Positions 5,115 through 26,764 of a stretch of DNA of 64,000 bases are shown piece by piece. The translations under genes were made by a program, and so were the position numbers. The stretch's first letter is position 1, and each line of letters starts with the position of its first letter. Source of the DNA: Candidatus Avelusimicrobium bubulum (GTDB lineage Bacteria > Elusimicrobiota > Elusimicrobia > Elusimicrobiales > Elusimicrobiaceae). The notes under the pieces were generated by a model. That model worked only from the letters and a program-made list of their open reading frames with translations. It did no database searches and was not told the origin of the DNA. The DNA lies in assembly GCA_902798835.1 (NCBI GenBank), contig CADBYN010000004.1, positions 1 through 64,000 of the forward strand, written 5' to 3'.

Positions 5115-5115
5115 T

Positions 5116-5292: not shown

Positions 5293-5296
5293 ACAA

Positions 5297-5995: not shown

Positions 5996-6017
5996 AATCT
6001 CCTCTCACTTCCAAAAT

Positions 6018-9059: not shown

Positions 9060-9998
9060 CTAACAACTTCCTGTAGGAGCCGCAGCCGCACCACGGGCCT
9101 TAGAAGGAACTAAAAAGGAAAATCCCTCTATTTGCGCTGCCGTGCCAAAATCCATTAATACTTTTCCTTCCCACAGGAATGTGGGAGAAGCACTAATGCC
9201 ATACGCTTCACCATAGGCGGCTTCTGCTTTTAATAATTCCAACCCTTCCTTATCAAATTTCTTCGCAATTTTTTTAGGATCAATCCCCGCTTCTTCCATG
9301 GCTTTATCCCAACGGCTGGAGCGATAATCTTTATTACGAATAGCCAAATACTGCCACAACTTTTTAGGATAATATTTAGCAATTAATAACTGCCGCACAT
9401 CTTCTTCCCATTCTGCCGAACCGTGCAAGCTCGTAAATCCCCTCGCAGGATCATAGTTCACAATATAACGCAGTTTTACGACCTTATCTTTAGGGAATTC
9501 CCCACTCTTTTTGGCTTCTATCACTGCATTTTCCGCCATGACTCCGTACGGGCACTGGGACATAACAAAAATTTCCATCACATTGTTAACGGCTTCTTTA
9601 TTTGTATATACGCCCGTGCGAGTTTGATGTGCAAGAACGATATAATCTGCCGTTTCTTGCGCAATTCCTTGCTTTAAAGGAAGTTCCATTTTAGCACGCA
9701 CTTCATCCGTTTTTTTAACTAAATACAACGGCAAAAAGCTATAGTCCAAATTCGCCAAAGTTTCATCCTGCATGGCTTGCAATTGGGTCATTTTGGTAAC
9801 TACAGGTTCCATCCCTAAAAATTGCCCCAATCCAGCCGTCAAGCGGGCATCTTCTCGTCCGGAAGCATATTCGCCGGATTCCACAACGATAAGTTCAGCC
9901 TTCGTTTGCTTACTTTTAGCTTTTTCTTTCTGAGCGGCAACGGCCTCCAGCGGTACGGCCAAAGCCGATACCAACAAAATAGCGAGCAGTTTCTTCAT
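9060..9998 (-). CDS. Secreted thioredoxin-fold protein with a single-Cys CPYG motif
   Basis: 312 residues with a clear signal peptide (MKKLLAILLVSALAVPLEAV then AAQ). Residues about 138-300 look like a DsbA/GILT-type thioredoxin fold: a strand MEIFVMS, then QCPYGVMAE, and a late SASPTFLW that supplies the cis-proline. The usual CxxC is CPYG, so only Cys149 remains, plus a cysteine as the very last residue (TGSC). This suggests a mixed-disulfide, chaperone-like or peroxidase-like role, not ordinary two-cysteine oxidation. Residues 30-130 hold an additional domain without cysteines. It may help fold cysteine-rich proteins of the locus, such as the giant Cys-rich protein at 22.4-26.6 kb; this is inference. 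Confidence 0.75.
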   Translation of the reverse strand: MKKLLAILLVSALAVPLEAVAAQKEKAKSKQTKAELIVVESGEYASGREDARLTAGLGQFLGMEPVVTKMTQLQAMQDETLANLDYSFLPLYLVKKTDEVRAKMELPLKQGIAQETADYIVLAHQTRTGVYTNKEAVNNVMEIFVMSQCPYGVMAENAVIEAKKSGEFPKDKVVKLRYIVNYDPARGFTSLHGSAEWEEDVRQLLIAKYYPKKLWQYLAIRNKDYRSSRWDKAMEEAGIDPKKIAKKFDKEGLELLKAEAAYGEAYGISASPTFLWEGKVLMDFGTAAQIEGFSFLVPSKARGAAAAPTGSC

Positions 9999-10012
9999 AT
10001 AATCACAACCCT

Positions 10013-10282
10013 CTATTTGTCTTCCAATTCAACGCGAATACCGCGCACACCCAACGAACATAAGAAATTGTACACAAACAGAAAAACAATCACAGATACC
10101 AGGAACAAAATAGTCCCCTGGATAGCAAACATGACAAGCCCCATTAAGTAGGACACCGTAAGCGTAGCTTCCGGTTTAAAAACTTCCAAGCAAGCCGTCA
10201 TGAGCATAAGCACAAATACAGCCAGCGGAAATACTGAAAAAAGCACATCTTTAATGGATATTTTTTTGATTTCTACTTTCAT
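10013..10282 (-). CDS. Small membrane protein (89 aa)
   Basis: No family recognised. Two or three hydrophobic segments are visible (about residues 14-30, 40-55 and 57-75), with a short basic N-terminus (MKVEIKKISIKD) and an acidic C-terminal tail (IRVELEDK). A good ribosome site (AGGAG) precedes the ATG. It lies between a HAMP-domain sensor protein and the thioredoxin-fold protein, with gaps of about 15 bp on both sides, so it is part of the same operon. Confidence 0.7.
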   Translation of the reverse strand: MKVEIKKISIKDVLFSVFPLAVFVLMLMTACLEVFKPEATLTVSYLMGLVMFAIQGTILFLVSVIVFLFVYNFLCSLGVRGIRVELEDK

Positions 10283-10299
10283 ACACTCTCCTAAAATGA

Positions 10300-11406
10300 T
10301 TACTTCTCAGGTTCTAGAACTACTACAATACGGTTTTTACCGGCGTCATCCGGCAACTGTACAGCTTTTACAACACATTTTACATTTGCATTCACAACAG
10401 ATCCGCGTAACACTTTGGTGGGATTTTCAAGGGCTTCTCCAACTACGTGAATAATCTCCTGCTGACGTCCGTCGAAAATATCCAACAGGTGAATTTTGCG
10501 ATCCTCCGGCTCTTTTAATTCAAAATTGGTATATAACACATTGTTATTTTCATCTACCACAATTGCACGGGTTCCCTTGGGTACAGCAACGGCAAAAATC
10601 GCTTTCCACCAGGTTTTCTCTTTCTCCAAGGCCATAATTTCACCATGCTCCAGGGATTTCATCTCCTCACTAATTTTACCCAGCAATCCTTGCGTCGCTT
10701 TTGCCACATCCCCTATTTCGTCCTTACGTTCCGGGTAGCCTAAAGACAAATTGTTAAAAGATACCGCGTCAATACTATCTTTAAGTGCATTGAGAGGACG
10801 GATCACCCGAAGCAACAAGAACAAGTACAACACGCCCCCTATAAGCAAAATCATAATAATAGCCCCAACAGCATAACGCACCATAGAAGCGCGAATCAAG
10901 TCCCGGGCGGCCGCGCGAGAAACAGTTAAATTAACCACCCCGGCTACACGATTGCCTTTAGCAAGCAGCGGAATGGCCATATCATACACTTCTCCCTTAG
11001 AAGCTAAAATAGCACGCGGAGACCCACTACGGATAGCATGGACAACGGCATTGGTATCAAAACCTACGGAATTGTCATAATCCGAATAGGACATCCCCAT
11101 AAATTTTGTATTTTCATGCCAGCGAATAGAGCCATCATAATTTAAATAAACAATATTTTTTACCCGGGCATCATTTTGCATCATGTCTTTCATTTGGCTG
11201 ACTTCCGGGAAAGACACTTGCGTAGGTTTTGCCGCCAATCCTTGCACCAACTGAGGGGCACGGAAACGGACCATTTCTACCATTTCATTTTGTAATTTTT
11301 TATCAAATACAAACTTGAACAAATTGTAATAAAACAATCCTCCAATTACCGCAGCATAAACAGTTACCAATACAAACCATAAAAGCCATTTTGAAGTCAG
11401 TTTCAT
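10300..11406 (-). CDS. Membrane sensor with HAMP and PAS-like domains, no kinase
   Basis: 368 residues. A membrane segment at about 8-28 is followed by an extracytoplasmic sensor region (about 30-175). A second membrane segment lies at 178-200 (AVGAIIMILLIGGVLYLFLL), then a HAMP domain (VIRPLNALKDSID ... DEIGDVAKATQGLL). The C-terminal 120 residues read like a PAS fold (RAIVVDENNNVLYTNFEL). There is no histidine-kinase, GGDEF, phosphatase or methyl-accepting signature. It therefore probably passes its signal by protein contact, perhaps to the kinases encoded 1-4 kb downstream or to the pilus motor. The ATG has a strong AGGAG site. Confidence 0.75.
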   Translation of the reverse strand: MKLTSKWLLWFVLVTVYAAVIGGLFYYNLFKFVFDKKLQNEMVEMVRFRAPQLVQGLAAKPTQVSFPEVSQMKDMMQNDARVKNIVYLNYDGSIRWHENTKFMGMSYSDYDNSVGFDTNAVVHAIRSGSPRAILASKGEVYDMAIPLLAKGNRVAGVVNLTVSRAAARDLIRASMVRYAVGAIIMILLIGGVLYLFLLLRVIRPLNALKDSIDAVSFNNLSLGYPERKDEIGDVAKATQGLLGKISEEMKSLEHGEIMALEKEKTWWKAIFAVAVPKGTRAIVVDENNNVLYTNFELKEPEDRKIHLLDIFDGRQQEIIHVVGEALENPTKVLRGSVVNANVKCVVKAVQLPDDAGKNRIVVVLEPEK

Positions 11407-11415
11407 GGGTTACTC

Positions 11416-12879
11416 CTATTTAATCATCATAAGTTCTTCCACTTTGCGAAGACCTAACTCCGCATCGGTGTTGCCCGGATCTAATTGTTTAGCCACAATC
11501 CATGCTTGGCGGGCTCGTTCAAAATCGTCTTGGTTGTATGCATCTAACCCTTCAATATATTTAGCACGTGAGGCAGCGCTTGCTTCCGCAGATACGCGTG
11601 TGATACCCCCGGATAAGCCCGGCACAACTTCACTAACACCAGGCATGCCATTGGTAGTAGTGGTAGTAGTTGTGGTAGTAGTTGTGGTCGTGGTACCGGG
11701 AATAGCTCCGGGAATAATCGGGGCAGGATTGTCCACCATAATAGTTTCCAGCACCTCGGCCGGCTCTTCTACTTTTTTCTCAGCTTCTTCAGCCAATTCT
11801 TTGGCCTTTTCAAGTGCCCTTTGGGCAGCCGCTTCAGCCTGTTGCGTCTCTAGTTCTAATTGTTTGGCACGCAATTCTTGATTGCGGATATAGCGTTCTT
11901 TGGCGTTACGTGCTTGCTTGATCATATTATCCATGGCAGCCGTATCTGCACCCCATTTTTTGGCGTTATTCCAATAAGAAATCGCTTTATCATACTGATA
12001 CGACCCATACGCCTTACATCCCGCCGTATAATAACCGCCCGCAATTTCGTTCTTGAGTTGCGACATATACTTCTGTATGCGCGGGTCACCCGGTTGAATT
12101 TTCTTAATTCGTTCAAATACCGCATAAGCCTCTACGTATTGGCCCTTGTTATAGAGTTCTAAGGCTTGCTTCATATTTTCTTGCAACTGTTGCTGGCGAA
12201 GTTTAGACTCTGCCTCAGAAATTTTAGTCACCAACGTAGTATCATCTTTGCGCATCAAAAGTGCGTTATACCAAGCATCCAACGCCGCTTGATATTCCCC
12301 GTTTTTCTCGGCAACATTTCCGCGCCGCGTGTATTCTTTGGCAATTTCGGCGTCTATTTGGCGCTTCCAAGATTGTGCCTTTGAATTGCCGGGTTGAAGG
12401 GTTAAAATTTCGTTTAACTTATCGTTTGCCTCTACCAAACGTCCACTATCATACAAGGCAGCCGCTTCTTTAAACTTGGAATCAATCACTTGTGATTCTG
12501 AAATGGTCCCGTAAGTTCCCATGTTATTGGCTTGTTTGGCCAATGTTTCGGCCTGCTTAAAGTTGGGGTCAATGGTTAAAATGGTTTGTGCAAGTTCTTG
12601 GGCACGTTGATAATCGCCTTGCCTGTAGAGTTGGTATGCGTTCTCGTACACCATACGCAAGGTATAATTTTGAATACGTTGCTTTTCGAGTTGCACCGTA
12701 GAAAGATATTGCTTCTTTTCTTCTACATCATTGAGGGTTCCCAAGGAAATCTTACCCAAATCCAGCAGCATTCCTTCCTCTTTACCGTATTGGCGCGTAG
12801 GTACTTCCCGCACGAATGTGGATGCAAAACCTTGAACAGCCATACTTAGCAAGATAACAGTGAGTAGATGTTTATTCAT
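11416..12879 (-). CDS. Secreted TPR protein of the Tad locus
   Basis: 487 residues with a signal peptide (MNKHLLTVILLSMAVQGFAS). At least five tetratricopeptide-like units are visible between residues 75 and 330, for example AYQLYRQGDYQRAQELAQTI, AALYDSGRLVEANDKLNEIL and ALELYNKGQYVEAYAVFERI. An Ala/Glu/Lys coiled segment follows (about 335-375), then a run of 14 threonines in a Pro/Gly linker, and one last TPR (AYNQDDFERARQAWIV). TadD-type TPR lipoproteins serve Tad systems, but this one has no lipobox cysteine. A periplasmic scaffold for secretin or motor assembly is a reasonable guess. Confidence 0.8.
   Translation of the reverse strand: MNKHLLTVILLSMAVQGFASTFVREVPTRQYGKEEGMLLDLGKISLGTLNDVEEKKQYLSTVQLEKQRIQNYTLRMVYENAYQLYRQGDYQRAQELAQTILTIDPNFKQAETLAKQANNMGTYGTISESQVIDSKFKEAAALYDSGRLVEANDKLNEILTLQPGNSKAQSWKRQIDAEIAKEYTRRGNVAEKNGEYQAALDAWYNALLMRKDDTTLVTKISEAESKLRQQQLQENMKQALELYNKGQYVEAYAVFERIKKIQPGDPRIQKYMSQLKNEIAGGYYTAGCKAYGSYQYDKAISYWNNAKKWGADTAAMDNMIKQARNAKERYIRNQELRAKQLELETQQAEAAAQRALEKAKELAEEAEKKVEEPAEVLETIMVDNPAPIIPGAIPGTTTTTTTTTTTTTTNGMPGVSEVVPGLSGGITRVSAEASAASRAKYIEGLDAYNQDDFERARQAWIVAKQLDPGNTDAELGLRKVEELMMIK
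11653..11694 (-). repeat. Trinucleotide tract encoding 14 Thr
   Basis: Fourteen consecutive ACN codons (mixed ACC, ACT, ACA, ACG) in the linker of the secreted TPR protein. The mix of synonymous codons suggests selection for threonine, not only DNA slippage. It is a likely flexible spacer and possible glycosylation site. Confidence 0.85.
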
Positions 12880-12888
12880 ACGAGTTCC

Positions 12889-13776
12889 TCAAAATCCAAG
12901 TCCCCCGGAGAGCAGGCCCCCCAACATAGGAGACAAAATAAGAATAAAAATTGTAGGGAAGATGAAAATAAACAACGGGAATAACATCTTGGTAGAAGCT
13001 TGTGCGGCCAATTTTTCAGCTTTGTTCAAACGGCGCGAACGCAAATCCGCCGAAAAGTTGCGCAACAGGTCTACTAAACTGGTACCCAGCTCATCAGACT
13101 GAATAATAAGCCCCACCAAAGAGCGCACTTCCTGTACACCGGTGCGCGCAGCAAAGCGTTCCAACGCTTCACGGCGGGAATATCCCAATTTAATTTCTCC
13201 AATTGTTTTTTCCAATTCTTCTTCTAAAATTGTTTTTTCGCGGGCTACTTTAATAATTCTTTCAAAGGCCGTCAAATAGTCCAACCCGGACTCAATAATA
13301 AGTGCCGCCAAATCTACCGTGGTAGAGAAGTTACCTAAAATTTCTTGCTGGCGTTTTTGAATGCGGCCTTTAATAATCACATCCGGCAAGATAAATCCAA
13401 TCGGCAAAAAGATAATAGGCCAAAATGATTTAAACAAAAGCATCATGGCTACCGGTAAAACAAAAGCCACTAAAATCTTAATATACAGAATGTCTACCGG
13501 CTGGGGCTTATCCGGGCTACCCAACTGCAAATACATGGTTTCGAGGGGTTCTTCCAAATGAAAGGTACTCAAACAAAACGCTGCAATTTTGTCCACGAAT
13601 TTAGCATCCGGATCCAGGCGTGCAAAACTGGAAGCCGATTTATAACGATGTACCGTAACATCGACAATCTCTTCTTTATCCTCGGCAGGAGCGAATAGAC
13701 GGAATATTCCCACGAAAACAGCCCCGGCACCTGCCAGCAGTATCAAATTTAAGCAAATAGTCATCAAACTGCTCAT
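12889..13776 (-). CDS. tadC: TadC, inner-membrane platform protein of the Tad pilus
   Basis: 295 residues. A GspF/T2SSF domain covers about residues 140-265 (LAALIIESGLDYLTAFERII ... VGLIIQSDELGTSLVDLLR ... KAEKLAAQASTKMLFPLFIF). Membrane segments are at the N-terminus (about 5-25), near 105-140 and at the C-terminus. TadB and TadC together form the inner-membrane platform on which the ATPase drives pilus assembly. Start ATG follows the tadB stop by 2 bp, as expected for two proteins needed in equal amounts. Length fits TadC (about 300). Confidence 0.92.
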   Translation of the reverse strand: MSSLMTICLNLILLAGAGAVFVGIFRLFAPAEDKEEIVDVTVHRYKSASSFARLDPDAKFVDKIAAFCLSTFHLEEPLETMYLQLGSPDKPQPVDILYIKILVAFVLPVAMMLLFKSFWPIIFLPIGFILPDVIIKGRIQKRQQEILGNFSTTVDLAALIIESGLDYLTAFERIIKVAREKTILEEELEKTIGEIKLGYSRREALERFAARTGVQEVRSLVGLIIQSDELGTSLVDLLRNFSADLRSRRLNKAEKLAAQASTKMLFPLFIFIFPTIFILILSPMLGGLLSGGLGF

Positions 13777-13778
13777 AA

Positions 13779-15416
13779 TTATACCCGAATATCTCCCAGT
13801 TTCTTAAGCACTTGCATCCCGATGAAAATCCACACCACACAGAACAGGAAAATAATCATCCCGACCGGGCTGGTGTAGAAGGAAATCATCTGCGTGGGGT
13901 TAAACACAAACATAACCGCCATCATAATAAACGGCATCACACTCACCACGATAGATTGAATACGTTGTTGAGCCGTCATAGCCTGCAACTTTTCTTCCAG
14001 CTTGCTTTCCTCGCGAATGTTTTCCACCAGACGCGCAAAAATAACCGGCAAATTACCACCTACCTGACGCTGAATGATAATAGCTTTTACGATATACGCC
14101 AACATACGGCTATCTACACGCGACACCATACCATCCAATGCTTGTTCAAAGGGCATACCTAAACGATAGTTTTTAACTACCAATCCAAATTCGTCCGAAA
14201 TAGGCGGAAGCAAGTCTTTAGATACCATTTCAAACCCTTGCACGATATCCATACCCGAACGCAATGAGTTTGATAACAAAATTAACGCATCCATAAGTTG
14301 TTTATTGACTTTAATTCCGCGGCTGCGTTTTAATGTTTCCAAGATAGAAGCGGGAACGCGCACGCTGATCATAGCCCCAAAGGCTAAAATCCCTAAGAAG
14401 ACAAACACGCCCAAGAACCCGCCAATCATCCATCCGAAGAAGAAACCAATTACCAGGAAGATGATAATAACGCCCATGACGATATACTTCACATCAATCG
14501 TTACGAATTGGCGGTTGAAATCTTCTGCCCAAATGGCACTTTTTTCGCGGTAATCTTCCATCATGGCCGTAATGGAATCCCGCTTGTTATTGATTAGGAA
14601 ATAGACAAACATACCCGCTAACAAAGACCCAACCAGAAGGAGCAGCAAACTATTCACTCGGTCTGCCCGGGTGGTTCGATACGTTTCGGGCTTAGGCGGA
14701 TCTGCCGTTGGAATGGCACTTCCCATAAACTGGGCATAGAGGTGATTGGCTAATACAACTACGGCCATCACAGATTTACGATATTTCTCATCTCGTTGCG
14801 AGACAGGGCTGGAGAAAGATTCTATGGTGCTGAAAAACTCGTTATTAATAAGTTCGAGCGTAGAAAGCATCGAACGCGCGCGCCCTTGCATGCTATCCTT
14901 CATTGTATAGAACTTATTCGAACGTAATAAATCTTTATTCAAACGGTCTAAAGTCGCCATTAAATTTAGTCGGTTGCCCACATAGCCGCGGGAAAGTTGT
15001 TCCAATACGATGGGTTTGTTCGGGTCTAAAGACTGAGCGGCCCTATCTAAATACAAATATACGTTAGAAAACGCTTGCCGCCACAAATCCACTTCACTAT
15101 AGGTGTAATCTTCAGCCTTTACATACAAGATCTTGTGGCTATCCATACGAGGAAGTTCTTCGGCAAACCAATCCGGCATAGTAACCGGCTTTTTCGCAGA
15201 AACTCCACACAAATCCGTAAGCGTATAGGTCTTTTCATCTTCTTTTGAATCAACATTGAAAAACCCTGCCAATATACGCATTTTGTCCTGCGCACATTGA
15301 ATTTTTTTCAAATCTTCCGTGTCTAAAGAACGCGCGCCCAAAACCCCTGGCAACAAAGTAATCATCAGGGAGATAGCACAAATTTTGAACCAAGATATCT
15401 GTTTTTTCATACGCAT
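13779..15416 (-). CDS. tadB: TadB, inner-membrane platform protein with N-terminal extension
   Basis: About 546 residues when started at the ATG giving [12 protein letters not shown], which lies 5 bp after the intended stop of the cpaEF gene. A start further upstream would only read the repeat array in a meaningless frame. The C-terminal 300 residues are TadB: membrane segments, then a T2SSF domain (LILLSNSLRSGMDIVQGFEM, VVKNYRLGMPFEQALDGMVS, IIIQRQVGGNLPVIFARLVE). Usual TadB proteins have about 300-320 residues. The extra 250 at the N-terminus carry a signal-peptide-like segment and a helical periplasmic region with two cysteines, and are unusual. Confidence 0.9.
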   Translation of the reverse strand: MRMKKQISWFKICAISLMITLLPGVLGARSLDTEDLKKIQCAQDKMRILAGFFNVDSKEDEKTYTLTDLCGVSAKKPVTMPDWFAEELPRMDSHKILYVKAEDYTYSEVDLWRQAFSNVYLYLDRAAQSLDPNKPIVLEQLSRGYVGNRLNLMATLDRLNKDLLRSNKFYTMKDSMQGRARSMLSTLELINNEFFSTIESFSSPVSQRDEKYRKSVMAVVVLANHLYAQFMGSAIPTADPPKPETYRTTRADRVNSLLLLLVGSLLAGMFVYFLINNKRDSITAMMEDYREKSAIWAEDFNRQFVTIDVKYIVMGVIIIFLVIGFFFGWMIGGFLGVFVFLGILAFGAMISVRVPASILETLKRSRGIKVNKQLMDALILLSNSLRSGMDIVQGFEMVSKDLLPPISDEFGLVVKNYRLGMPFEQALDGMVSRVDSRMLAYIVKAIIIQRQVGGNLPVIFARLVENIREESKLEEKLQAMTAQQRIQSIVVSVMPFIMMAVMFVFNPTQMISFYTSPVGMIIFLFCVVWIFIGMQVLKKLGDIRV

Positions 15417-17892
15417 TAACTTTAAACTGCCGGCGGAGCAGGTGGCATCGGCTCTTGCGGAGCGGGTGGCATCGGCTCTTGCGGAGCGGGTGGCATCGGC
15501 TCTTGTGGAGCGGGTGGCATCGGCTCTTGCGGAGCGGGTGGCATCGGCTCTTGCGGAGCGGGTGGCATCGGCTCTTGCGGAGCGGGTCTTGCGGAGCGGG
15601 TGGCATCGGCTCTTGCGGAGCGGGTGCATATGTAGAGGCTTGCAACGCTTCTACGGCACGCAAGTCAGGCTCTCCACTTGCATCCAACGGAACGGCTCCC
15701 TTCGTAAATACGTCTTTTGAAACGGGCCATCCTTTAGCTTCAAATTCATCATAAAATGTAGGCAAATTGCCGGTAGGGGCAAACACCCCTTGTACTTTTC
15801 CGTTTTCATCCACCCCGGTTTGCACATAGCGGAACAAATCGGTAGATTGAATCTCTCCGTTTACCTGCCCGTGCATTTCGGTAATATAGGTTACTTTACG
15901 GGAACCGTCTGAAAAACGGGACAACTGCACAATCATGTTTACGGCTGAGGAAATCATTTCGCGGATTACGTGCACCGGCAAATCAACCCCTGTTTGCAAG
16001 CACATGGCTTCCAAACGGGATAATCCGTCACGCGGAGTATTGGCGTGAATAGTAGTGAGCGATCCTTCGTGACCGGTGTTCATGGCTTGTAACATGTCTA
16101 ACGCTTCGCCGCCACGACACTCCCCGACTACAATGCGGTCCGGACGCATACGCAAACAGTTCTTTACTAAATCTTGAATAGTTACCGCCCCTTTTCCTTC
16201 TACGTTTGGCGGACGACTTTCCAACGATACCCAGTGCGGTTGTTGCAGCCGAAGTTCCGCCGTATCTTCCACCGTAATAATACGTTCATCATCGGCAATA
16301 TAACCCGAAATAGCATTTAAGAAGGTCGTTTTACCGGTACCGGTACCTCCGCACACAATGATGTTTTTGCGGATTTTAACACATTGCTTGATAAATTCCA
16401 TACATTCCGGGCTAATGGTACCAAAGCGGTAGTAATCTTCCGGACCAAACGGCTTTTGGGAGAAACGACGGATCGTCAATGTGGGCCCGGAAACAGCCAA
16501 CGGGGAAATAATAGCGTTCACACGGGAGCCGTCTTTCAAACGGGCGTCCACTAACGGTACAGATTCGTCGATACGGCGGCCTAACGGGGCCACAATACGT
16601 TTAATAACCTGCACCACTTGCTCGTTGTTTCTAAATTTGTATTTGGTGAGCGTCAACTTACCTTTTTGTTCGATAAAGATTTTATCAAAGGCGTTGACCA
16701 TAATTTCGGTAACGGCCGGGTCGCGCATGAGGACTTCCAGAGGCCCCAACCCTAAAATTTCATCTAATAATTCCGCAGAAAAACGAGCACGTTGTTCACG
16801 CGAAAATTGCAAATTGGGTTGTTTTTGCAAAATATCATCCACAATAGCGGCCACCCGTTTGCGTGTTTGTTCACTGGCAGAACTTTCGTCGCTGACCACA
16901 ATGTGTTCAATTTCTAACGTATGCACCACTTCCTTGTGCACCCGTTGCTTTAAATCATCCCAGAAGGAAAGTTTCGCCCCTTCTTTTTCATCGCTAATTA
17001 CGTGATTTTCGGCCGATTGCGTGTTCCCGTTATCAAACAACACCGGGCTCCAAATTTCTTGCGCGGCTTGCGTAAATTCGGCATCGGAAACGGACGCTGT
17101 CCAATCTTTAGGTGCCGGTTTTAAATCGCGGATTTTAGCAAGCACCAACCGCAGCCCTTTAACCCACTCCGCTTGCGGATTGACAACAATTTCCACTTCT
17201 TTACGGTTGGACGTAGCCATTACATCTTCGTCCCAAGGTAAGAATACATCTACTTCTTGTCCCAAAGAAGAGTAGAATCGTTCTACTTCTTCATACGCAA
17301 TAGAACCGGGCATATCATAAGCGTTGCAAATAACGCTAATGCGGTCCATGGGGTAATGTTGCTCTTTATAGTCATTAAAAAGCTGCACGGTAGAATTAAG
17401 ATGCGAACGCGTAGCCTGCGAGACCCAAAACAATTTATCTGCAATATCAAACGCAAAGGCTTGCATGGGGAAGCTGGAATCTACATCCAAGAAAATATCA
17501 AAGGTCTGTGCTAAACGCGATAAAATAGGAATTAAAATTTTGGGGCTAATGGAAGCCACTTGGGCACGCGTATTTCCTAACGGGAGCACACCTACGCCCC
17601 ATTGAGACATGGAAATTTTTCCTCTTAAAAGCCCCCCTACTACTGCGATGTTTGTGTTCCCCAACGTTTTCAAAATGTCGGCTACACTAACGGGTTTTTT
17701 AATGTTTAAATAAAAGCTGTGTTCTTGACGTGCCAACGGATCCAACGGAACAATAAGCACGGGGCGTTTTTGAATACCCGCCCAACCAAGTGCTAAGTTA
17801 AGAGTAAGGGTTGTCTTCCCGGCGCCTTCTTTCGGGCCGGAAAATGCAATAATCTTTGATTCTGATTTACTATGTTCTTTCTCTGCTGCCAT
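15250..17892 (-). CDS. CpaE-CpaF fusion: pilus-localising ATPase joined to assembly ATPase
   Basis: Two Tad ATPases in one chain. Residues about 10-260 are a MinD/ParA-like domain with a Walker A of deviant type ([10 protein letters not shown]), as in CpaE/TadZ, which places the pilus at a cell site. Residues about 340-740 are the secretion ATPase CpaF/Tad[15 protein letters not shown], Walker [10 protein letters not shown] (about 515-523), an Asp box (ITVEDTAEL), and Walker B ([17 protein letters not shown]). The tail is Pro-rich and enters a 24-bp repeat array. A shortened repeat unit shifts the frame there, so the sequence as given reads PLRKSRCH repeats and runs 170 bp into tadB. In the original frame the tail would be MPPAPQEP repeats ending at 15422, 5 bp before tadB. 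Start chosen at ATG 17892. Confidence 0.9.
15441..15625 (-). repeat. 24-bp tandem repeat array with one 14-bp unit
   Basis: Seven copies of a 24-bp unit (core GGCATCGGCTCTTGCGGAGC on the plus strand), beginning at 15441, 15465, 15489, 15513, 15537, 15561 and 15599. An incomplete unit of 14 bp starts at 15585. The copies are nearly identical; one has a T for C. Read on the minus strand it encodes MPPAPQEP repeats at the C-terminus of the CpaE-CpaF protein until the short unit, after which the frame shifts. No frame of the unit has a stop codon. Confidence 0.95.
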
Positions 17893-17899
17893 ATTCAAA

Positions 17900-18646: not shown

Positions 18647-18657
18647 GTGTCATCCCA

Positions 18658-19413
18658 TTAGTTAAATAATTTATCAAATGTTGCAATTTCCATTAAGTAG
18701 TTCGTTACGTCTCCGTGAGAACGTAAGATGACCGTAATTTTGCCCTGTTGTTGGGCTAGTGCCAAATACTGGGCATCACGCGGGGAAAGTGCCAATGCTA
18801 AAGAAACGCTATCCGAATAGGCAGAAGCATCTTCATCTTTGCTCTTTAACGCACTGGCGGACTTGGCGTCTAATCCTTGTCCTAAGTCATTACCCACACC
18901 TAATACTTTAATGTTCTGCAAAAGGGTTACCGTTACATTTTGATGTCGGCCGTCTTTCATATCCGCTTCAAATGTAAACAAAATATCCACGTTATCATCC
19001 GGTTTAATGAGCGAGGCCGTAGCCACCGGGATATCGTTGACAATATAACCGCGCATCTGTACCGGAATTTTGCTGGAAAGCCCCGCTTCCGGAGACAAGG
19101 AAGTGATGGCATATTTAGAAATCTGGTTTCCTTTGGGAATTTGAATACGCGCCACAGCGTTTTCAATTGCTTTAAAATCCGCATCGGTTGTATAGGTAAA
19201 AGCATCTTTTTGCAAATAGGCAGCCGGTATGGGAACCGTTTTAATAGAAGCACGGTTGATTACTTCACGCTCTTTAATATCCCGCGTGGGAACAAACACA
19301 TATTTAGGATTTTTGGAGTCGTTCAATTTTTTCTCTGCACGACTTACAATCATGGCATACACAATGGCCGCTAAAATGGCCAATACCAACGGCAATAAAA
19401 AACCTCTTCTCAT
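18658..19413 (-). CDS. cpaB: CpaB/RcpC, Tad pilus assembly protein
   Basis: 251 residues. An N-terminal membrane anchor (about 5-22, FLLPLVLAILAAIVYAMI) is followed by a SAF domain (VPTRDIKEREVINRASIKTV ... IPKGNQISKYAI). The RcpC/CpaB-type domain comes after it (GYIVNDIPVATASLIKPDD, VDILFTFE ... VTLLQNIKVLGVG). CpaB sits in the periplasm and is thought to gate or stabilise the secretin. It lies 11 bp upstream of the short secretin, the usual Tad order. Confidence 0.93.
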   Translation of the reverse strand: MRRGFLLPLVLAILAAIVYAMIVSRAEKKLNDSKNPKYVFVPTRDIKEREVINRASIKTVPIPAAYLQKDAFTYTTDADFKAIENAVARIQIPKGNQISKYAITSLSPEAGLSSKIPVQMRGYIVNDIPVATASLIKPDDNVDILFTFEADMKDGRHQNVTVTLLQNIKVLGVGNDLGQGLDAKSASALKSKDEDASAYSDSVSLALALSPRDAQYLALAQQQGKITVILRSHGDVTNYLMEIATFDKLFN

Positions 19414-19454
19414 TTTATCTCCTTACAACTTAAATTAAATAATCCAAAATCTGT

Positions 19455-19940
19455 TTATCGCTGATCCGAACTTAAGTACGCCTTTTCCACCGGCATACGC
19501 GCCGTAGCGGTTAACCTTCGGATCCCTTCCCGGCGGGGCTCATTGGCCAAAATATAACTCGTCCCCGGGAAAGCCAACTTTAGTGGATATACCACCGTTA
19601 CTACCACATCTTGGTGCCGGTGTTTTTTATACATAGGGTCCATACCCGTTGTTTCCACCTTCACCTGCACGGTAAGCCTATCGGCTTCCTGGCCAAACAC
19701 TTTACGTTTGGCGTGATCAATCTTTTGCTGCATTATTGTCCGGTTTGCAAGGCCGCTGGGCTTATCTACCCCAACTAACGAAGCGATACGGGCAAACTCA
19801 TAGGAAGCGTGATTTAATACAACCGTTCGGTAAGCGATATTGCCATACTCCAACACGAAGAAAATCACCAGCAGGAACACTGGCAAAATAAGCATTAACT
19901 CTACGGTTACTTGGCCACGCTCCCTATGAAATAGTTTCAT
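19455..19940 (-). CDS. TadE-like pseudopilin
   Basis: 161 residues. The N-terminus MKLFHRERGQVTVELMLILP shows the short basic leader, a cleavage Gly, and the Gln-xxx-Glu pattern of TadE pseudopilins. A hydrophobic helix VFLLVIFFVLEYGNIAYR follows, with a mixed globular domain of about 120 residues. It lies 3 bp after the second Flp pilin gene. The similar protein at 3426..3968 is a distant paralogue. Confidence 0.88.
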   Translation of the reverse strand: MKLFHRERGQVTVELMLILPVFLLVIFFVLEYGNIAYRTVVLNHASYEFARIASLVGVDKPSGLANRTIMQQKIDHAKRKVFGQEADRLTVQVKVETTGMDPMYKKHRHQDVVVTVVYPLKLAFPGTSYILANEPRREGIRRLTATARMPVEKAYLSSDQR

Positions 19941-19943
19941 ATC

Positions 19944-20168
19944 TTAAGCAGCGCTGTTTACACCACCCAAAATTTTCTGCTTAACGTTTTCATACACTTC
20001 CGGCATGAAACTCTTTACCGCAGCGCCGACGCCTAACGCAATACCTACTACCACTACGAGCATGAGCACGTATTCTACCGTGTTTTGCCCTTCTTTTTTA
20101 GTAAGCGTACCCAAGGCTTTGGCTTTGAGCATATCTACTTTGTTTTGCAACATGACGATATATTTCAT
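19944..20168 (-). CDS. flp: Flp-type pilin (74 aa)
   Basis: Prepilin of the class IVb/Flp family. A long leader of about 26 residues (rich in Lys) ends KKEG; the mature form starts QNTVEYVLMLVVVVGIALGV, with the conserved Glu5-Tyr6 and a hydrophobic helix, then FMPEVYENVKQKILGGVNSA. Longer and with a more typical tail than its neighbour, it is my preferred candidate for the major pilin. Ribosome site GGAGG precedes the ATG. Confidence 0.9.
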   Translation of the reverse strand: MKYIVMLQNKVDMLKAKALGTLTKKEGQNTVEYVLMLVVVVGIALGVGAAVKSFMPEVYENVKQKILGGVNSAA

Positions 20169-20191
20169 AACTCCTCCTGGAATCCTAAATT

Positions 20192-20374
20192 TTAGCCTGC
20201 ATTATAATCCGTCAAAATAACTTTTGCACCTTGCTCGAACTGCTGGGGCACCAAGTGCGAGTACAACACATAGAAAGAAAGGAATGCCCCCATCAACCCG
20301 GCCGCTACTATAATATATTCCACGGCCCCTTGGCCTTTTTTATTTGCAAGAACTTTCTTTCCAGTTTTCAACAT
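20192..20374 (-). CDS. flp: Flp-type pilin (60 aa)
   Basis: Prepilin with leader MLKTGKKVLANKKG and mature start QGAVEYIIVAAGLMGAFLSF, giving the Gly-Gln-xxx-Glu-Tyr signature of Flp pilins. The mature chain is about 46 residues. It is the first of two adjacent pilin genes, and its ATG is 3 bp after the stop of the PorV-like gene. The sequences of the two pilins differ beyond the motif, so they probably have distinct places in the fibre. Confidence 0.9.
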   Translation of the reverse strand: MLKTGKKVLANKKGQGAVEYIIVAAGLMGAFLSFYVLYSHLVPQQFEQGAKVILTDYNAG

Positions 20375-20377
20375 ATC

Positions 20378-21355
20378 CTAAAATTGGATAGACAACGCCA
20401 ACTGCTGCGACGTGCCTAATGCCCCAAACGGGGTAACCGCATAATCAATCGAGGCGCCATAGCCAAAGAGTTCTCCGCTATACACACCTGCACCAAACGA
20501 TACGCGGGAAGTTTCTTCCAGCCCTACTTTCTTTACCCAACTATCGTCTGTATTGATACCGGTATTATCACGCGTGTAATATCCTACGCGCAAATCGAAC
20601 CGGGCAACTTGTAACAAATCTTCGGGGATGTGAATTTCAAGTCCCACACCATAACGGGCTTTATCGTCGCAATATTTCGTATATTCGCCGGAAACGGTGA
20701 AATAGCGCGTATTGAGATCAGCCCCTAAACGCAGCCCGCGCGGCATTTCATCTTTATCGCCGATGTTGACAAGGGCACCACCTAAGCCGAGCCAATTAAC
20801 CAGGCGCAGTTTAGCCCCCACATCAAAACCCACGTTATCATAGTGATTATGACCGTGGCCGTTATACAAACGTTCGGTTACATACTTAGCCGTACCGCCA
20901 ATCTGTAATTTTTGGTCGATAAATCCGCGAGCGACAGATAAACTGCCCACAAAGTTTTGCACCGGGATACCTACTTCCGGGTTTTTATTACCCCATTCAT
21001 CGCGGAAGTCAAAGTCATCCATATCCATATAGTTTAACGTCAAGCCGATAATTGTTTTGCCGATCGGGTGTAAATACGCTAACGTACGGGATTTATAACC
21101 TTGTAAATAATCCTGGTACGCAAACTGCAATTCATGCGTGGTGGCGCTGGCGGCCCCGGCCGGGTTCCAAAACAGCGCTTCCGGCCCGTCGGCCACAGAC
21201 ACAAAAGCGTTACCTAGTGCCTGGGCACGCGGAGCCCCCGCATCGATCTTTAAGAAGGCCCCCGCACTGGTACCTGCATTTTTATTGATGGCCAGCGCGT
21301 TGGTGCTAAGAAGTCCTACTAACAAACCTGCCGTCACTATATTTGATATCTTCAT
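20378..21355 (-). CDS. PorV/UPF0164-like outer-membrane beta-barrel protein
   Basis: 325 residues with a signal peptide (MKISNIVTAGLLVGLLSTNA then LA). It opens with the hallmark of the PorV/PorQ/UPF0164 family: NAGTSAGAFLKIDAGAPRAQ, ALGNAFVSVADGPEALFWNP, AG. Alternating beta strands follow to the C-terminal Phe (LALSIQF), as in outer-membrane barrels. In Bacteroidota PorV shuttles cargo in the type IX secretion system. Here it lies between the giant FlgD-Ig-like protein and the Flp pilins, so it may export, process or anchor that giant protein. It is not itself a known Tad component. Confidence 0.85.
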   Translation of the reverse strand: MKISNIVTAGLLVGLLSTNALAINKNAGTSAGAFLKIDAGAPRAQALGNAFVSVADGPEALFWNPAGAASATTHELQFAYQDYLQGYKSRTLAYLHPIGKTIIGLTLNYMDMDDFDFRDEWGNKNPEVGIPVQNFVGSLSVARGFIDQKLQIGGTAKYVTERLYNGHGHNHYDNVGFDVGAKLRLVNWLGLGGALVNIGDKDEMPRGLRLGADLNTRYFTVSGEYTKYCDDKARYGVGLEIHIPEDLLQVARFDLRVGYYTRDNTGINTDDSWVKKVGLEETSRVSFGAGVYSGELFGYGASIDYAVTPFGALGTSQQLALSIQF

Positions 21356-21393
21356 AAATTCACTATTCCTCTTATATTATAGCACGAAGTTAC

Positions 21394-22473
21394 CTACGGG
21401 ATTAATATCTTTACCACCTTTTGGCAATGTTCGCGCCCGTTATAGGCTTTAAAATCTACCAGGCCGAAGTATACACCGCGTGCCACTTTCTTGCCGTGTT
21501 GGTTGGTACGATCCCATCTGCAGCGCAAGGCCGCGTTACGTACGTTGGCAAACGCGTTCAAGTCCACACGATGGTACTGACCATCCGCATCTTTCACGTT
21601 GTTATCCGGTTGGAAGTACAGGCTCGATCCCATGGTGGTTTGATAGTTATTCGCATCCACACATGTATAGTCTGCGTCGCGTACTAAGTCACCGGCCAAG
21701 TTGAAGTACTTAATGGATACCGTACCCGGCACCGGCATCTTGGTAATTTCGAGCGTACCTTTGCTGGCATCGTTGAGCGGGTTGGGGTAGAAGAACACGG
21801 TCTTCTTCCAATCTTCACAGACAAACCGTCCGTCGCCGATAGCGATAGTCGCTTTGTGCAAGTTCTGATACTCGTACGTATCAGCCACACGGGCGATTTT
21901 CCACTCATTGGGATTTTCCGCCTTGTCATTTCCGAGCAAGATCTCACCCGTTACCGAGTCGATCGCCGCCGTATCGAGCGACGTTACGAAGCGGAACGGA
22001 TATATCCCGTCGGGTACTTCTTGGCCCGCATAATCCAGGCCGTCCCACACTTCTTCGACCAGCGTGGTACCGGGGCGGATACCCACAATGGAGCGCACAA
22101 GCACTTCGCGGATATCTTGTACTTCTAACCCAGTGGTCGGGTTACGCAACGTACCTTTGGAGTAATCAAAGATGGTGGTACCCGGTTTTAAGATTTGGAT
22201 AGCTACTTTCATCGGCACAGAGACCTGATAGCCGATCTTCATATTTTGGCCACGTTGAGAAATGGCGTAGTTATCGTTCTCTAACAAGTCGAATACTTTT
22301 AACAGATCCGCGTTCAAGGTAATGGACTTGACCGTCGGTTCATAGAGTCCGGCATCGGGGTAATTCCGCGCCGTCAAACGCACCTCATAGATACCGGGTT
22401 TAACGTAGTTACCGGTATGGTCGGTGCCGTCCCAATAAATCTTGCGGATTGCGCGAGCACATATGGTCTTCAA
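21394..22473 (-). CDS. C-terminal part of the giant FlgD-Ig repeat protein (split frame)
   Basis: About 359 residues with no signal peptide, which continue the preceding large protein in the +1 frame. They contain a FlgD-Ig-like unit at the very start (IRKIYWDGTDHTGNYVKPGI then YEVRL), a second (EEVWDGLDYAGQEVPDGIYP), and a last one ending CRWDRTNQHGKKVARGVYFG. The C-terminus (KVVKILIP) is that of a complete protein. The apparent start is a TTG within the overlap, and no ribosome site precedes it. It is best read as the 3' end of one long gene, interrupted by a single-base shift near 22470. Confidence 0.85.
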   Translation of the reverse strand: MKTICARAIRKIYWDGTDHTGNYVKPGIYEVRLTARNYPDAGLYEPTVKSITLNADLLKVFDLLENDNYAISQRGQNMKIGYQVSVPMKVAIQILKPGTTIFDYSKGTLRNPTTGLEVQDIREVLVRSIVGIRPGTTLVEEVWDGLDYAGQEVPDGIYPFRFVTSLDTAAIDSVTGEILLGNDKAENPNEWKIARVADTYEYQNLHKATIAIGDGRFVCEDWKKTVFFYPNPLNDASKGTLEITKMPVPGTVSIKYFNLAGDLVRDADYTCVDANNYQTTMGSSLYFQPDNNVKDADGQYHRVDLNAFANVRNAALRCRWDRTNQHGKKVARGVYFGLVDFKAYNGREHCQKVVKILIP

Positions 22474-25400
22474 GTGCTACGATAGCCACTTCCACCTGAG
22501 CCGCGCGGGAGATCGAGAAGTTGATCTCATAGGGCGGGATGAAATGCAACGTGGTGCTAGACGCATTGAAAAGTTGCGGTGCGTTGGGGAACACGGCTAC
22601 GCTGCCGTCCAAGAAGTACACCGGCCCGCGGGTAACGTTGATTTTGTGGACCACTTTATCCGAGGCGTAGAGGTAATCTTCCTGTTGGACGTCGATGTTG
22701 TTCTCTTTTCCGTATTCTTCCCCTCTTCTAAACGGTTCGCCGGAAATAGTATAGGTATGTCCGCTGCCAAACGTGGTGTTTGCATCACGCAACTTATCAT
22801 AATAGTAGCGGTTGAACGGCTCGTTGGAGCGCGCGGAGATGAAGAACGGATATTGACCGTCGGGCACCATTTCGTAAGGGCAGTTGGCTTTTTCTTTAGA
22901 GCCTTTGCACTTATTGATTTCTTCTTCCGTATGGCGGCCGGCATCCGGGGTGGGGTTGTAGAAGTACAACGCATCCCATTCTTCCATTACAATTCCGTCA
23001 TCGCCGATACGCAAGCTGGAGCGGTCAAACGTGTGGATCGGCTGCAAGCGCACATCCACTACGCCCGATGAGGCCTCCCCTGCATTGGCGGGGTAATTGG
23101 TAAAGTTTTTATCGTTTACATAGATACACGCTGTTTGGGTTTGGTTAACCTTGGCAGGATCTACATAACAAGATTGTCCCGCAGCAGTACAGGGTTCACC
23201 ACCTACTCTTGTGAATACGGCACCATCTGTCTCTCTATCGCATACCCGCGGCGGCCAAGCAGCCAAGGAAGTGGAAGGCACATCCAATACTTCTTGTTTC
23301 AAGTAAATAGTATATTTATTGCTAAACGGCTCGTTGTTGTGATAATGATGTCCTTCCGGTAAATTTTCCGGGTCATCGGCTGGATCTTGATTTAAGTTCG
23401 TCAAATCATCATTCAAATCTCGATTTCCATAAATATCATGTTCAGCAACAGCGGTCCAAGTATTGCGATACATACCATTCACCAATTGTACTTGTGAGAC
23501 ACCCACTTCCAAATCAGCGGGGCTGACAGCTGCAAAGGCGATTCCATCCTGTGCCGGCGTAAAAGTTTGTGACACAGCTAAACTTTCTAATCCGGTTTTC
23601 TTCGCTTGATACACACCTGTTACATGCGCGTCATTATACTCGCCGGTGGTACTATTATAATGAGGGATGACTACATCCTTATTATATATATTCACCTGCG
23701 CGTTCATAGTTTTGGACAGATGGTACGAAATCGTGGCTTTGGCGTTGCTATCGCCATATACGTCCGTGGTGGACACATCTACCACGCGGTACATATCCAC
23801 GGGGAAGACCTCAATGGCTTCGTTGCTCATAGCGGGGAACATAGCGTCCTTCGCTTTGACGCGGAACATGTACGTGCCGGGGTAGACCATACGGCCTTGA
23901 TCGTCGCGGCCATCCCACGTTAAGGTATTAAGTTGCGCAGCTACGTTCGGCTCGCCCTCTTGCAAGGTTAAGTGTTTCACTATTACGCCGGCGGTGTTTT
24001 CCACGGTGGCGATTACTTGTGCATCGCGGTCCAAGGAATATTTAAAGATATACGGATCCAAACCATACGCCGTTGGGCTCGATCCCAAGGTGGCGTAGCT
24101 GGCGGGTTGCATGGTGATACCCACCAAGCCGCGTTCCAATTCCAAGGTGCCCACGGTGTATTTTAAGGTTTTTACACCGGTAAAACATTGGTTGTTAATT
24201 TCTTTTCCGTCACCAGAACAGGTAGCTTGCGCTGTGAATTTAGGCGATTTCCCATCTGCAGACCCAATGGCGTTTACATATTTGCCATTATAAGGTATTT
24301 CTGCCCATAATACATAGACGTAGTTACCATCCGGCATCGGGGCACCGTAAGCGTAAGTTTCCGAACGGTTGGTGGCGGTAGCAATTTGCCCGTTCGCCAT
24401 TTTTTCGCCTACTGCATAGGAGCGCACACAATTGGTCGGATTGCCGGAAGCATCTTTGGCTTGGCAGGTACCGTCCCAACGTTGCGTGTAATTCATGCGA
24501 CCGGATTTTTGCTCCACACTACGATATACTAATGAACCGGTAAAATCGGTTGCATTCGTACTAATGGTAGGCCCGGTTCCCGTGGGTTTGGAAGAATCGG
24601 TTAAAACTTCGGATACACCGTTAGGGCCCGTGAATGTAGTGCCCGGAGTGTATACTTCCCAATATACGGTAGAAGGTTCCGTCGGCACGTAAGAAATGGT
24701 AGCATAGGCGGTGGACTTTTTGTTAAGCCCAGTCACTTGCACATCCGTCAGTTTTAAGGGATCCAACGACACTTGACGTGTTACCGCGCGCGAGAAGTCA
24801 ATGCCCGGCCATTCATCTTGGGATTTGGCTTGAATAGAGGCAATATAATTGCCCGCCGGCAAGAGGAACCCTTCATCATGGCGGCCATCCCATGAATCAA
24901 AATCGGAGATTTGCGTATCTTTGTCGGTACCTTTCATACCTTCGCCGGTACGCGGTTGCCAATCCACCAAAGTGCGAACAATAACACCCGTAGCCGCCGT
25001 ATAATCTCCCCCCGCAGCAAAACTAGCTTCATTGGTAGAATTACCCGTTCCCGGAACAACTCCGTACGCATAAGAAGCATTATCGGCAGTAGACGCATCA
25101 AAAATGGCAATGCGCACGTCGGCATCTTTACTTAAACGATAGGTAAATGTGTAAGGTTGTGCGGACACCGGAGTAATGGTACCTACCAAGCTGGGGGTAC
25201 TGCGCACGGTGTGCACGTTGGTTACGTCAATTTGTATCGGGATTTGGGTGGCCCCGTTGTGGCCGGGATACACACCCGTTTCTTGAATTTCAATACGGTC
25301 TGCAATCAAACCGTCCGAAGGTACATTGGTGTAAGTGGTGGCGCGGTAACCGAATTGTCCGTTGGATTTACCAAACTCGCCGGCAATTTCATAAAAACCG

Positions 25401-26566
25401 TCCCACCCGGTGCAGAAATTAAGTTGTGCATTCGTCTCCGCCCCGTTAAAAACAAAAATTACACAATCACTATGACCTGGCCCGGTACAACATCCTTGAT
25501 AAGTAGTTGAGGAAACCCCTGGGTTACATGATGCAACCTGGTAGGAATATAACTGGTTCTTTTCTTTGGCAGCTGCATACGTTGTTGACGTGGACCAACA
25601 TTTTGATGGTTCCGTAGCACCCGTCAAGCTGACAGTACATGTACCACTTGTACTTCTTGTAGCACATGTACCACTCTTTGAAGAACCCGTACAAATCCAA
25701 ATATTCCAATTTTCGCTCACCGTTGTATACAACCGACATGTAGCAGCGCCATCCGGACTACAAGTGTACGTCCCGTCTCCTGTTACTGTACATGTTACCG
25801 TTCCTACAGCATCTGTTCCATTACAAATCCAGTGAGCGCCCACACATTCGGCTACTTGTGTATTTGAACCGGATGTCGAATCTCTTCCAGCGTTGGAACA
25901 GCGATAAGAACCACAGGTATATCTGCTAGGATCGCTAACATCTTGTGCCGGGTACACATCGATGGAACGAATGGTAGGGGTTTCATCCGGGTTTTTGGGG
26001 TTTTTGCCGTTGTAGTATTTAAAAATATCAAACGTAATGCGCTGCAAGGGGAACGCAATAGAATACGTAGATTGGCCTACGGGCAAGTTACTGCACGCAT
26101 ACGACGCGCACAACCCCAAACAATGGTTAGGGTAGGCGTTGGCAGTAGTCGGCGCGGGGTAAGGTTGGTCGTACTCAATGAGGCCCGAGCTCACCCACGG
26201 GTCATTTTGCGTTGCATTGGAACTAGGATTGACCTGAGAATACGGAGACACAATAAAACTACGGTCATCCGTTTCCGTACTTCCAGTATCGGTGTCAGCA
26301 GCAGGCCAAGGCAATAGCTTTCCGTTTGTCGCAGTCGCTTCTGATATAAAGCCGTTACAATATAACGCTCTATCCTGGGCAGAAGTGGAGCCGTCCGTAT
26401 CTGTATCAGCTTTATAGCCGTTTGTATAATATACCGCAGTACCGATGGTGTTGACCGTTTGGGCGAAAAGCGGCGCGCACAGCGCTACAAATAAGATTGT
26501 TAAAATGGACGTTTTTACCGTCTGAGGTTTACAAAAAGTATGAAGTAAATGTTGAAGTTTTGTCAT
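22409..26566 (-). CDS. Giant secreted protein with FlgD-Ig-like repeats and Cys-rich insert
   Basis: About 1385 residues from the ATG giving MTKLQHLLHTFCK; this start puts a signal peptide (SILTILFVALCAPLFAQ) near the N-terminus and has AGGG 12 nt upstream. Several FlgD-Ig-like units are visible by their WDG motifs: SWDGRHDEGFLLPAGNYIAS, QRWDGTCQAKDASGNP, LTWDGRDDQGRMVYPGTYMF and EEWDALYFYNPTPDAG. Residues about 220-420 are an extremely Cys/Ser/Thr-rich insert (about 20 cysteines) with more A+T-rich codons than its surroundings. It ends out of frame (RHRPYR) while the repeat continues in the next frame (21394..22473). As first gene of the Tad operon and neighbour of a PorV-like protein, it may be a surface adhesin or tip protein; that is inference. 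Confidence 0.85.
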   Translation of the reverse strand: MTKLQHLLHTFCKPQTVKTSILTILFVALCAPLFAQTVNTIGTAVYYTNGYKADTDTDGSTSAQDRALYCNGFISEATATNGKLLPWPAADTDTGSTETDDRSFIVSPYSQVNPSSNATQNDPWVSSGLIEYDQPYPAPTTANAYPNHCLGLCASYACSNLPVGQSTYSIAFPLQRITFDIFKYYNGKNPKNPDETPTIRSIDVYPAQDVSDPSRYTCGSYRCSNAGRDSTSGSNTQVAECVGAHWICNGTDAVGTVTCTVTGDGTYTCSPDGAATCRLYTTVSENWNIWICTGSSKSGTCATRSTSGTCTVSLTGATEPSKCWSTSTTYAAAKEKNQLYSYQVASCNPGVSSTTYQGCCTGPGHSDCVIFVFNGAETNAQLNFCTGWDGFYEIAGEFGKSNGQFGYRATTYTNVPSDGLIADRIEIQETGVYPGHNGATQIPIQIDVTNVHTVRSTPSLVGTITPVSAQPYTFTYRLSKDADVRIAIFDASTADNASYAYGVVPGTGNSTNEASFAAGGDYTAATGVIVRTLVDWQPRTGEGMKGTDKDTQISDFDSWDGRHDEGFLLPAGNYIASIQAKSQDEWPGIDFSRAVTRQVSLDPLKLTDVQVTGLNKKSTAYATISYVPTEPSTVYWEVYTPGTTFTGPNGVSEVLTDSSKPTGTGPTISTNATDFTGSLVYRSVEQKSGRMNYTQRWDGTCQAKDASGNPTNCVRSYAVGEKMANGQIATATNRSETYAYGAPMPDGNYVYVLWAEIPYNGKYVNAIGSADGKSPKFTAQATCSGDGKEINNQCFTGVKTLKYTVGTLELERGLVGITMQPASYATLGSSPTAYGLDPYIFKYSLDRDAQVIATVENTAGVIVKHLTLQEGEPNVAAQLNTLTWDGRDDQGRMVYPGTYMFRVKAKDAMFPAMSNEAIEVFPVDMYRVVDVSTTDVYGDSNAKATISYHLSKTMNAQVNIYNKDVVIPHYNSTTGEYNDAHVTGVYQAKKTGLESLAVSQTFTPAQDGIAFAAVSPADLEVGVSQVQLVNGMYRNTWTAVAEHDIYGNRDLNDDLTNLNQDPADDPENLPEGHHYHNNEPFSNKYTIYLKQEVLDVPSTSLAAWPPRVCDRETDGAVFTRVGGEPCTAAGQSCYVDPAKVNQTQTACIYVNDKNFTNYPANAGEASSGVVDVRLQPIHTFDRSSLRIGDDGIVMEEWDALYFYNPTPDAGRHTEEEINKCKGSKEKANCPYEMVPDGQYPFFISARSNEPFNRYYYDKLRDANTTFGSGHTYTISGEPFRRGEEYGKENNIDVQQEDYLYASDKVVHKINVTRGPVYFLDGSVAVFPNAPQLFNASSTTLHFIPPYEINFSISRAAQVEVAIVALEDHMCSRNPQDLLGRHRPYR

Positions 26567-26735
26567 TTCGTTTTTAGTCCCTTGCAAGGTTTTATTTACT
26601 ACCATTGTAGTAAATTTCACGTATAAAAACTACATACAAACCGCGCTTTGTTTTTATTCAAAACAAACCGCAGTTTACGACATTTTTTTCTGCGTAGAAC
26701 TGCCTAAAATTTCTAGGCGGGAACTACACTCCTAA

Positions 26736-26764
26736 ATTTTCGCAAGTTTTAAGAGAAATGTCAA
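26736..26764 (-). promoter_or_regulatory. Promoter of the Tad operon
   Basis: Minus strand: TTGACA (26764-26759), 17-nt spacer ending TGC, then GAAAAT (26741-26736), so a consensus -35 with an extended -10 (TGC). The transcript would have a leader of about 165 nt with a GCCTA...TAGGC hairpin (near 26701-26717) and an inverted pair TTTGTTTT/AAAACAAA-like around 26645-26668. Together with the terminator of the gene behind it, this fills the 290-bp gap 26567-26856. Confidence 0.7.

Follow-up and report, generated by a model that had tools for sequence, protein, structure and literature searches.

The type IX secretion system (T9SS) is usually described as confined to Bacteroidota. In Flavobacterium johnsoniae, PorV spans the lateral opening of SprA and binds, through its loops, the C-terminal domain of the cargo in the pore; energy input then draws PorV and cargo off SprA (PMC10994853). 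For type B adhesins, a dedicated shuttle gene lies immediately downstream (PMC12618676). As to Tad pili, their occurrence in Elusimicrobia has already been noted, with the prepilin peptidase TadV as an accessory feature that may be encoded apart from the locus (PMC6668835). Then, could a type IX-like pair of cargo and carrier form part of a Tad operon in another phylum? Here, we explore a stretch of 64,000 nucleotides from Candidatus Avelusimicrobium bubulum (Elusimicrobiota; contig CADBYN010000004.1), hereafter the window, in which a Tad operon begins with the genes of a giant FlgD-Ig protein and a PorV-family barrel. We consider it likely that the class Elusimicrobia as a whole has its own variant of the Tad operon, represented by this locus, with a type IX-like pair of cargo and carrier; the giant of this pair would be exported by SprA and its own PorV and act as an adhesin alongside the pilus. 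A literature search, poor in subscription papers and without preprints, found no report of SprA in Elusimicrobiota or of PorV in a Tad locus.

The window belongs to a reduced metagenome-assembled genome of 1.35 Mb. All the genes that an earlier note had named from the letters alone were found on the minus strand, in the order stated there, from 26620 to 9060. The order is giant, PorV-like barrel, Flp pilins, TadE, CpaB, short secretin, CpaE-CpaF, TadB, TadC, TPR protein and HAMP protein. The intergenic gaps are at most 41 bp from the giant through CpaE-CpaF, which fits an operon. The genes at its head are the following:

22409 to 26620, minus strand: giant FlgD-Ig protein, N-terminal and middle parts (FlgD_ig match; 1403 aa as read, start codon uncertain; orthologue in about 40 loci).
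21394 to 22473, minus strand: C-terminal part of the giant, out of frame, with a type A-like sorting domain at 21397-21786 (TIGR04183, CHU_C and Por_Secre_tail matches of the family alignment).
20378 to 21355, minus strand: PorV-family outer-membrane barrel, the proposed carrier of the giant (matches to NF033709 and, by profile, to a solved PorV; barrel model).

The place of this pair is conserved. In a survey of 295 genomes of the phylum, a CpaE-CpaF match was obtained in 239 and a PorV-like match in 243. Among the matches listed, the PorV-like gene lies 5' of CpaF on the same strand, 2474-3431 bp off, in 129 of the 136 genomes with both, and in at least four of the seven exceptions (G016, G081, G266 and G284) CpaF is no more than 1.6 kb from the upstream contig end. 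Based on 46 mapped loci of the class Elusimicrobia (40 picked for CpaF or PorV matches, and six others), the same gene order is present, with small local exceptions, in families f1, f2, f7, f8, f10, f13 and f14 wherever the contig reaches, and it is kept down to about 35-40% PorV identity. The earlier note had named the comparison of cpaF neighbourhoods as the way to overturn its link between the two genes and Tad; within the class, no locus read keeps the Tad set without the giant and PorV where the contig covers them. No PorV match was found in any of 74 Tad loci from outside Elusimicrobiota, picked by CpaF similarity. The link of PorV and giant to Tad is not due to chance, and the order kept across the class, together with its lack in the outside loci, indicates that it is old and, on present evidence, lineage-specific. 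One of the Tad loci from outside the phylum (L055) encodes a distant protein with a similar C-terminal domain.

In relatives, the giant is a single open reading frame (ORF) of about 940-1800 aa. In the window it is split into 26620-22409 and the out-of-frame 22473-21394, where the relatives read through; alignment with five of them places a loss of about 30-41 codons and a change of frame near 22454-22458, which may be a true mutation or an error of the assembly. The FlgD-Ig character that the earlier note gave to the giant is confirmed, while its description as one protein does not hold for the window, which has no single intact ORF. The giant has a Sec-type start, not a pilin-type one. In alignment A2 of 26 giants, the C-terminal 130 residues share a PNP motif and a conserved core, and the very end is ILIP-like in nearly all. 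Scanned singly, these ends give mostly weak matches, counted at E up to 0.1, to TIGR04183, the T9SS type A sorting domain (20 of 26; best 4.4e-6), CHU_C (22 of 26; best 5.3e-6), Por_Secre_tail (13 of 26) and PorZ (24 of 26). A profile of the sorting-type domain has one match in the window genome, at the giant, and one in each of eight other tested genomes of the genus, a count that may be low where contigs stop inside the domain. The predicted structure of the C-terminus was set aside, as the model was too poor for use.

In some species two or three giant genes occur per genome at separate places (G077, G089 and G025; L209-L215), which may explain why many contigs stop just upstream of PorV. 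The N-terminal parts of these giants differ most and are mosaic, and the later parts are much more alike. Judged from the sequences, they look like a recombining family of variable adhesins, a pattern that would fit a shared stalk with a binding end that varies. In addition, the loci with giants of 24-53 Cys contain a thioredoxin-fold gene, which was not found in nearly all mapped loci with giants of 4-20 Cys, L009 being an exception. The gene product probably assists disulfide formation in the Cys-rich giants of gut lineages. A 1374-aa ORF in G107 (L163) was considered as a natural fusion of giant and PorV and rejected, since the frame skips the normal end of the giant (VKKILIP, stop) and enters the start of PorV; it is most likely a frameshift.

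The barrel matches the PorV/PorQ family NF033709 with 89.8 bits (cut-off 90) and the PorV equivalog NF033710 with 22 bits, so that it is assigned to PorV at the level of the family, not of the equivalog. With a single sequence, the search of solved structures returned no match, while a profile of six rows succeeded and has PorV of the F. johnsoniae translocon (6h3i_F) as its sole significant solved structure, at 7e-5. The window genome contains this PorV and one distant relative of 428 aa.

The presumed partner of this barrel is an SprA-like protein. TIGR04189 (SprA) matches, under its cut-off, a protein of mostly 1750-1950 aa in 77 of 80 genomes of the class. Single members have no convincing Pfam match, and a single-sequence search of solved structures found nothing, while a profile of 19 SprA-like proteins reaches SprA (6h3i_A) at 3.9e-27 in three collinear stretches. 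This SprA-like profile has matches in 258 of the 295 genomes of the phylum, mostly in one copy. The window genome is included, with a gene on contig C36 (L189 6899-10686, G000:C36) that is cut by the contig end. The hint of type IX secretion in the earlier note was therefore right in kind, and stronger than the letters alone could reveal: the genome has an SprA homologue, and the C-terminus of the giant matches, if weakly, type A sorting domains.

The idea that PorV is exclusive to the Tad locus was rejected, as each of eight larger relatives has 7-24 PorV matches. Among 20 PorV genes away from Tad in larger relatives, 17 lie directly 3' of a same-strand gene with the same C-terminal domain, compared with 5 of 237 genes around SprA-like genes (Fisher p = 1.9e-19, a guide, as the 20 were chosen among the stronger matches and the background was sampled by convenience). 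For one of them, L236 (G061), PorV and giant are near the Tad type and may adjoin a Tad locus past the stretch read. Two gut genomes of genus g2 have a second pair, in which a thermolysin/M36-like protease with a FlgD-Ig end is followed by a second PorV-family barrel:

L220, 5570 to 10187: second cargo-carrier pair of genus g2.
L221, 8581 to 13201: second cargo-carrier pair of genus g2.

Moreover, G123 has cargo-PorV pairs and an SprA-like gene without a CpaF match. Consequently, export of such cargo by its carrier does not depend on Tad, and export by means of a Tad-type machine, as the earlier note had suggested, is not supported.

By analogy with F. johnsoniae, the locus most likely works like the SprA-PorV core of the T9SS. 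The giant would enter the periplasm via Sec, and the neighbouring PorV-family barrel would recognise its type A-like C-terminal domain at the SprA-like pore and, leaving the pore sideways, carry it to the cell surface. On the surface, the giant would form a long adhesin beside the Flp pilus that the other genes of the operon encode. It is the arrangement of a cargo gene followed by its carrier gene, in the same form as in F. johnsoniae, that suggests export of the giant by the SprA-like pore and its own PorV, while its size, its Ig-like modules and the pilus context point to the role of an adhesin. Cooperation of SprA, PorV and the C-terminal domain, the adhesin role and a functional tie to the pilus are what we infer from these features together.

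Two other explanations have to be weighed against it. The giant and the barrel may be parts of the Tad machine, with the barrel supporting the short secretin in the outer membrane and the giant travelling via the pilus channel, or being placed on it, as a protein of the tip or base. Such an arrangement would agree with the fixed place of the pair in the Tad operon across the class, with the length of the secretin, 239-282 aa in nearly all loci of the class against a median of 553 in other phyla, and with the known Tad tips that have variable domains (PMC12075869). However, the PorV-cargo pairs away from Tad, also in G123, the SprA homologue, and a giant with a Sec-type rather than a pilin start and with a sorting-type end all argue against it, and we regard it as unlikely. 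Alternatively, the barrel might serve for uptake as a FadL-like porin, and the giant might be a repeat protein of the ordinary kind, periplasmic or on the surface, the two sharing regulation only. The AlphaFold model of the barrel, which is barrel-like with a mean pLDDT of 60.7, has FadL-type and other porin barrels as its best structural matches, and the second g2 barrel weakly matches Toluene_X/FadL. By sequence profile, however, PorV is the only significant solved structure, and the frequent pairing of PorV with cargo genes, the sorting-domain matches and the SprA homologue make a mere uptake porin very unlikely.

Export by SprA and PorV, which we prefer, has its own difficulties. The sorting-domain matches of the giant C-termini are weak and the SprA-like proteins fall below the TIGR04189 cut-off. 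Among the further type IX parts that the earlier note had proposed to look for, the SprA homologue was found in the window genome, whereas the PorU sortase has no match over the cut-off in the 80 genomes of the class and no match at all in the window genome. GldM was met in none of 41 genomes, a weak test as the control set also gave no match, and GldL was not searched. In addition, several genomes of genus g55 have an SprA-like match without a PorV match, all of which weighs against the proposed route. Strict co-occurrence of SprA and PorV was accordingly rejected; in g55, SprA may have a role without PorV, or the PorV of this genus may be too divergent for the search. Since PorU was looked for and not found, the locus should not be filed as a canonical T9SS.

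A closer union may also be imagined, in which a single physical apparatus comprises both the Tad machine and the type IX-like pair. The PorV-giant complex would dock at the N-domain-poor secretin, and cycling of the pilus would place or stretch the giant or power its release at the pilus mouth. In P. aeruginosa, the N-domain of the secretin contacts RcpC (PMC12307814), and loss of this domain might, by prediction, leave room for another partner. We hold such a single apparatus to be quite unlikely; if true, it would be a hybrid of pilus and secretion system without a known described counterpart.

The remaining features of the locus are as follows:

26736 to 26764, minus strand: promoter candidate TTGACA-17-GAAAAT, 5' of the giant (boxes conserved in relatives; consensus scan at chance).
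20192 to 20374, minus strand: Flp-type pilin 1, 60 aa (weak class III signal match, sequence, synteny).
19944 to 20168, minus strand: Flp-type pilin 2, 74 aa (weak Flp1_like match, synteny).
19455 to 19940, minus strand: TadE minor pilin (PF07811 above cut-off).
18658 to 19413, minus strand: CpaB/RcpC (TIGR03177 above cut-off; RcpC).
17900 to 18646, minus strand: short secretin, 248 aa, with a signal peptide-like start and little N-domain (PF00263 above cut-off).
15250 to 17898, minus strand: CpaE-CpaF fusion, ParA-like domain plus T2SSE ATPase (last ~100 residues read from a tandem repeat).
13779 to 15629, minus strand: TadB (T2SSF; ~540 aa in relatives, true start likely 3' of the repeat).
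12889 to 13776, minus strand: TadC (T2SSF).
11416 to 12879, minus strand: exported TPR protein in the TadD position (TPR families; synteny).
10300 to 11406, minus strand: HAMP sensor without a kinase domain (HAMP match under cut-off; conserved in the class).
9060 to 9998, minus strand: thioredoxin-fold (DsbA-like) exported protein (weak DSBA match; occurs in f1-type loci).

Both Flp genes, the HAMP protein and the thioredoxin-fold protein are identified from weak matches together with sequence and synteny. CpaF matches TIGR03819 with 328.7 bits (cut-off 373), and T2SSE and two T2SSF matches are above cut-off. CpaE, CpaF and TadB, listed in the earlier note, are all present; CpaE and CpaF are one fused gene, with the ParA-like domain joined to CpaF in a protein of about 730-780 aa in most relatives, and in the window the CpaF tail runs into a repeat. 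This 24-bp tandem repeat, at 15433-15626 between CpaF and TadB, has about 6.5 copies in its best stretch and also overlaps the start annotated for TadB. Translated, it gives an HPLRKSRC-type peptide at the end of CpaF and RSARADAT in frame with TadB, and it makes both ORFs longer than is usual in relatives. A prepilin peptidase (TadV) is not in the locus, and the sole Peptidase_A24 of the genome is on contig C11.

For the promoter that the earlier note put at 26.75 kb, the scan alone proves nothing, with 27 consensus matches, this site included, where shuffles lead one to expect 29.6; what speaks for it is that TTGACA and an A-rich second box are kept 5' of the giant in relatives. The leader of the giant (window 26600-26740) folds more stably than shuffles, with z of -4.4. 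A structured RNA leader was rejected, as relatives do not share the leader sequence and none of the Rfam families attains its gathering score there, and so was sigma-54 control, with no site at the giant. Directly upstream of the leader is a GGDEF-type gene (26857-28368), named from sequence alone. Downstream, same-strand genes go on to about 3.4 kb (window 3426-8989) and comprise a split HAMP kinase, a receiver-kinase, a LuxR-type regulator, a 381-aa protein without family and a second TadE. The HAMP kinase (7102-8989) is broken by a frameshift, much like the giant, and is a single 628-aa ORF in L005; kinase and regulator genes are also located 3' of the locus in L005 and L006.

The widespread SprA homologue, the many PorV-family barrels and the adjoining cargo genes point to export by SprA and PorV in a phylum other than Bacteroidota. 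This suggests a route more widespread than assumed so far, and one that acts together with a pilus. The gut genome of the window appears to have kept the route in reduced form and linked to the pilus operon, with a single SprA homologue, a single clear PorV and a single recognisable cargo. Questions that thus become testable are how small an SprA-PorV system can be and still work, where its power comes from if the known motor is absent, and whether pilus and secretion route are built to act together.

Compared with known systems, the locus shares with the Tad pilus, such as Cpa of Caulobacter and Rcp-Tad of Pseudomonas and Aggregatibacter, the putative Flp-type pilins, TadE, CpaB, secretin, CpaE, CpaF, TadB, TadC and TPR protein in the usual arrangement, but here CpaE is fused to CpaF, the secretin is poor in N-domain, the giant and PorV stand at the head and the prepilin peptidase is encoded elsewhere. 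With the T9SS core of Bacteroidota (SprA/Sov, PorV and the C-terminal sorting domain) it has in common the SprA homologue, the PorV-family barrel and a type A-like cargo end. These are, however, distant homologues in another phylum, where PorU and, by a weak test, GldM were not found, and several carriers each adjoin a cargo gene instead of one general PorV. The pairs of the SprB-SprF type in F. johnsoniae (PMC12618676) are alike in that a large cargo gene is directly followed by its shuttle barrel gene; their cargo is of type B, whereas here the carrier is of the PorV family, the signal is type A-like and the pair lies within a Tad operon. Finally, the Kil pilus of Myxococcus with its exchangeable tips (PMC12075869) is also a Tad-type pilus tied to variable surface proteins, with several versions per genome, but the Kil tips are minor pilins, while in the giant described here a Sec-type start is combined with Ig-like modules and a sorting-type end.

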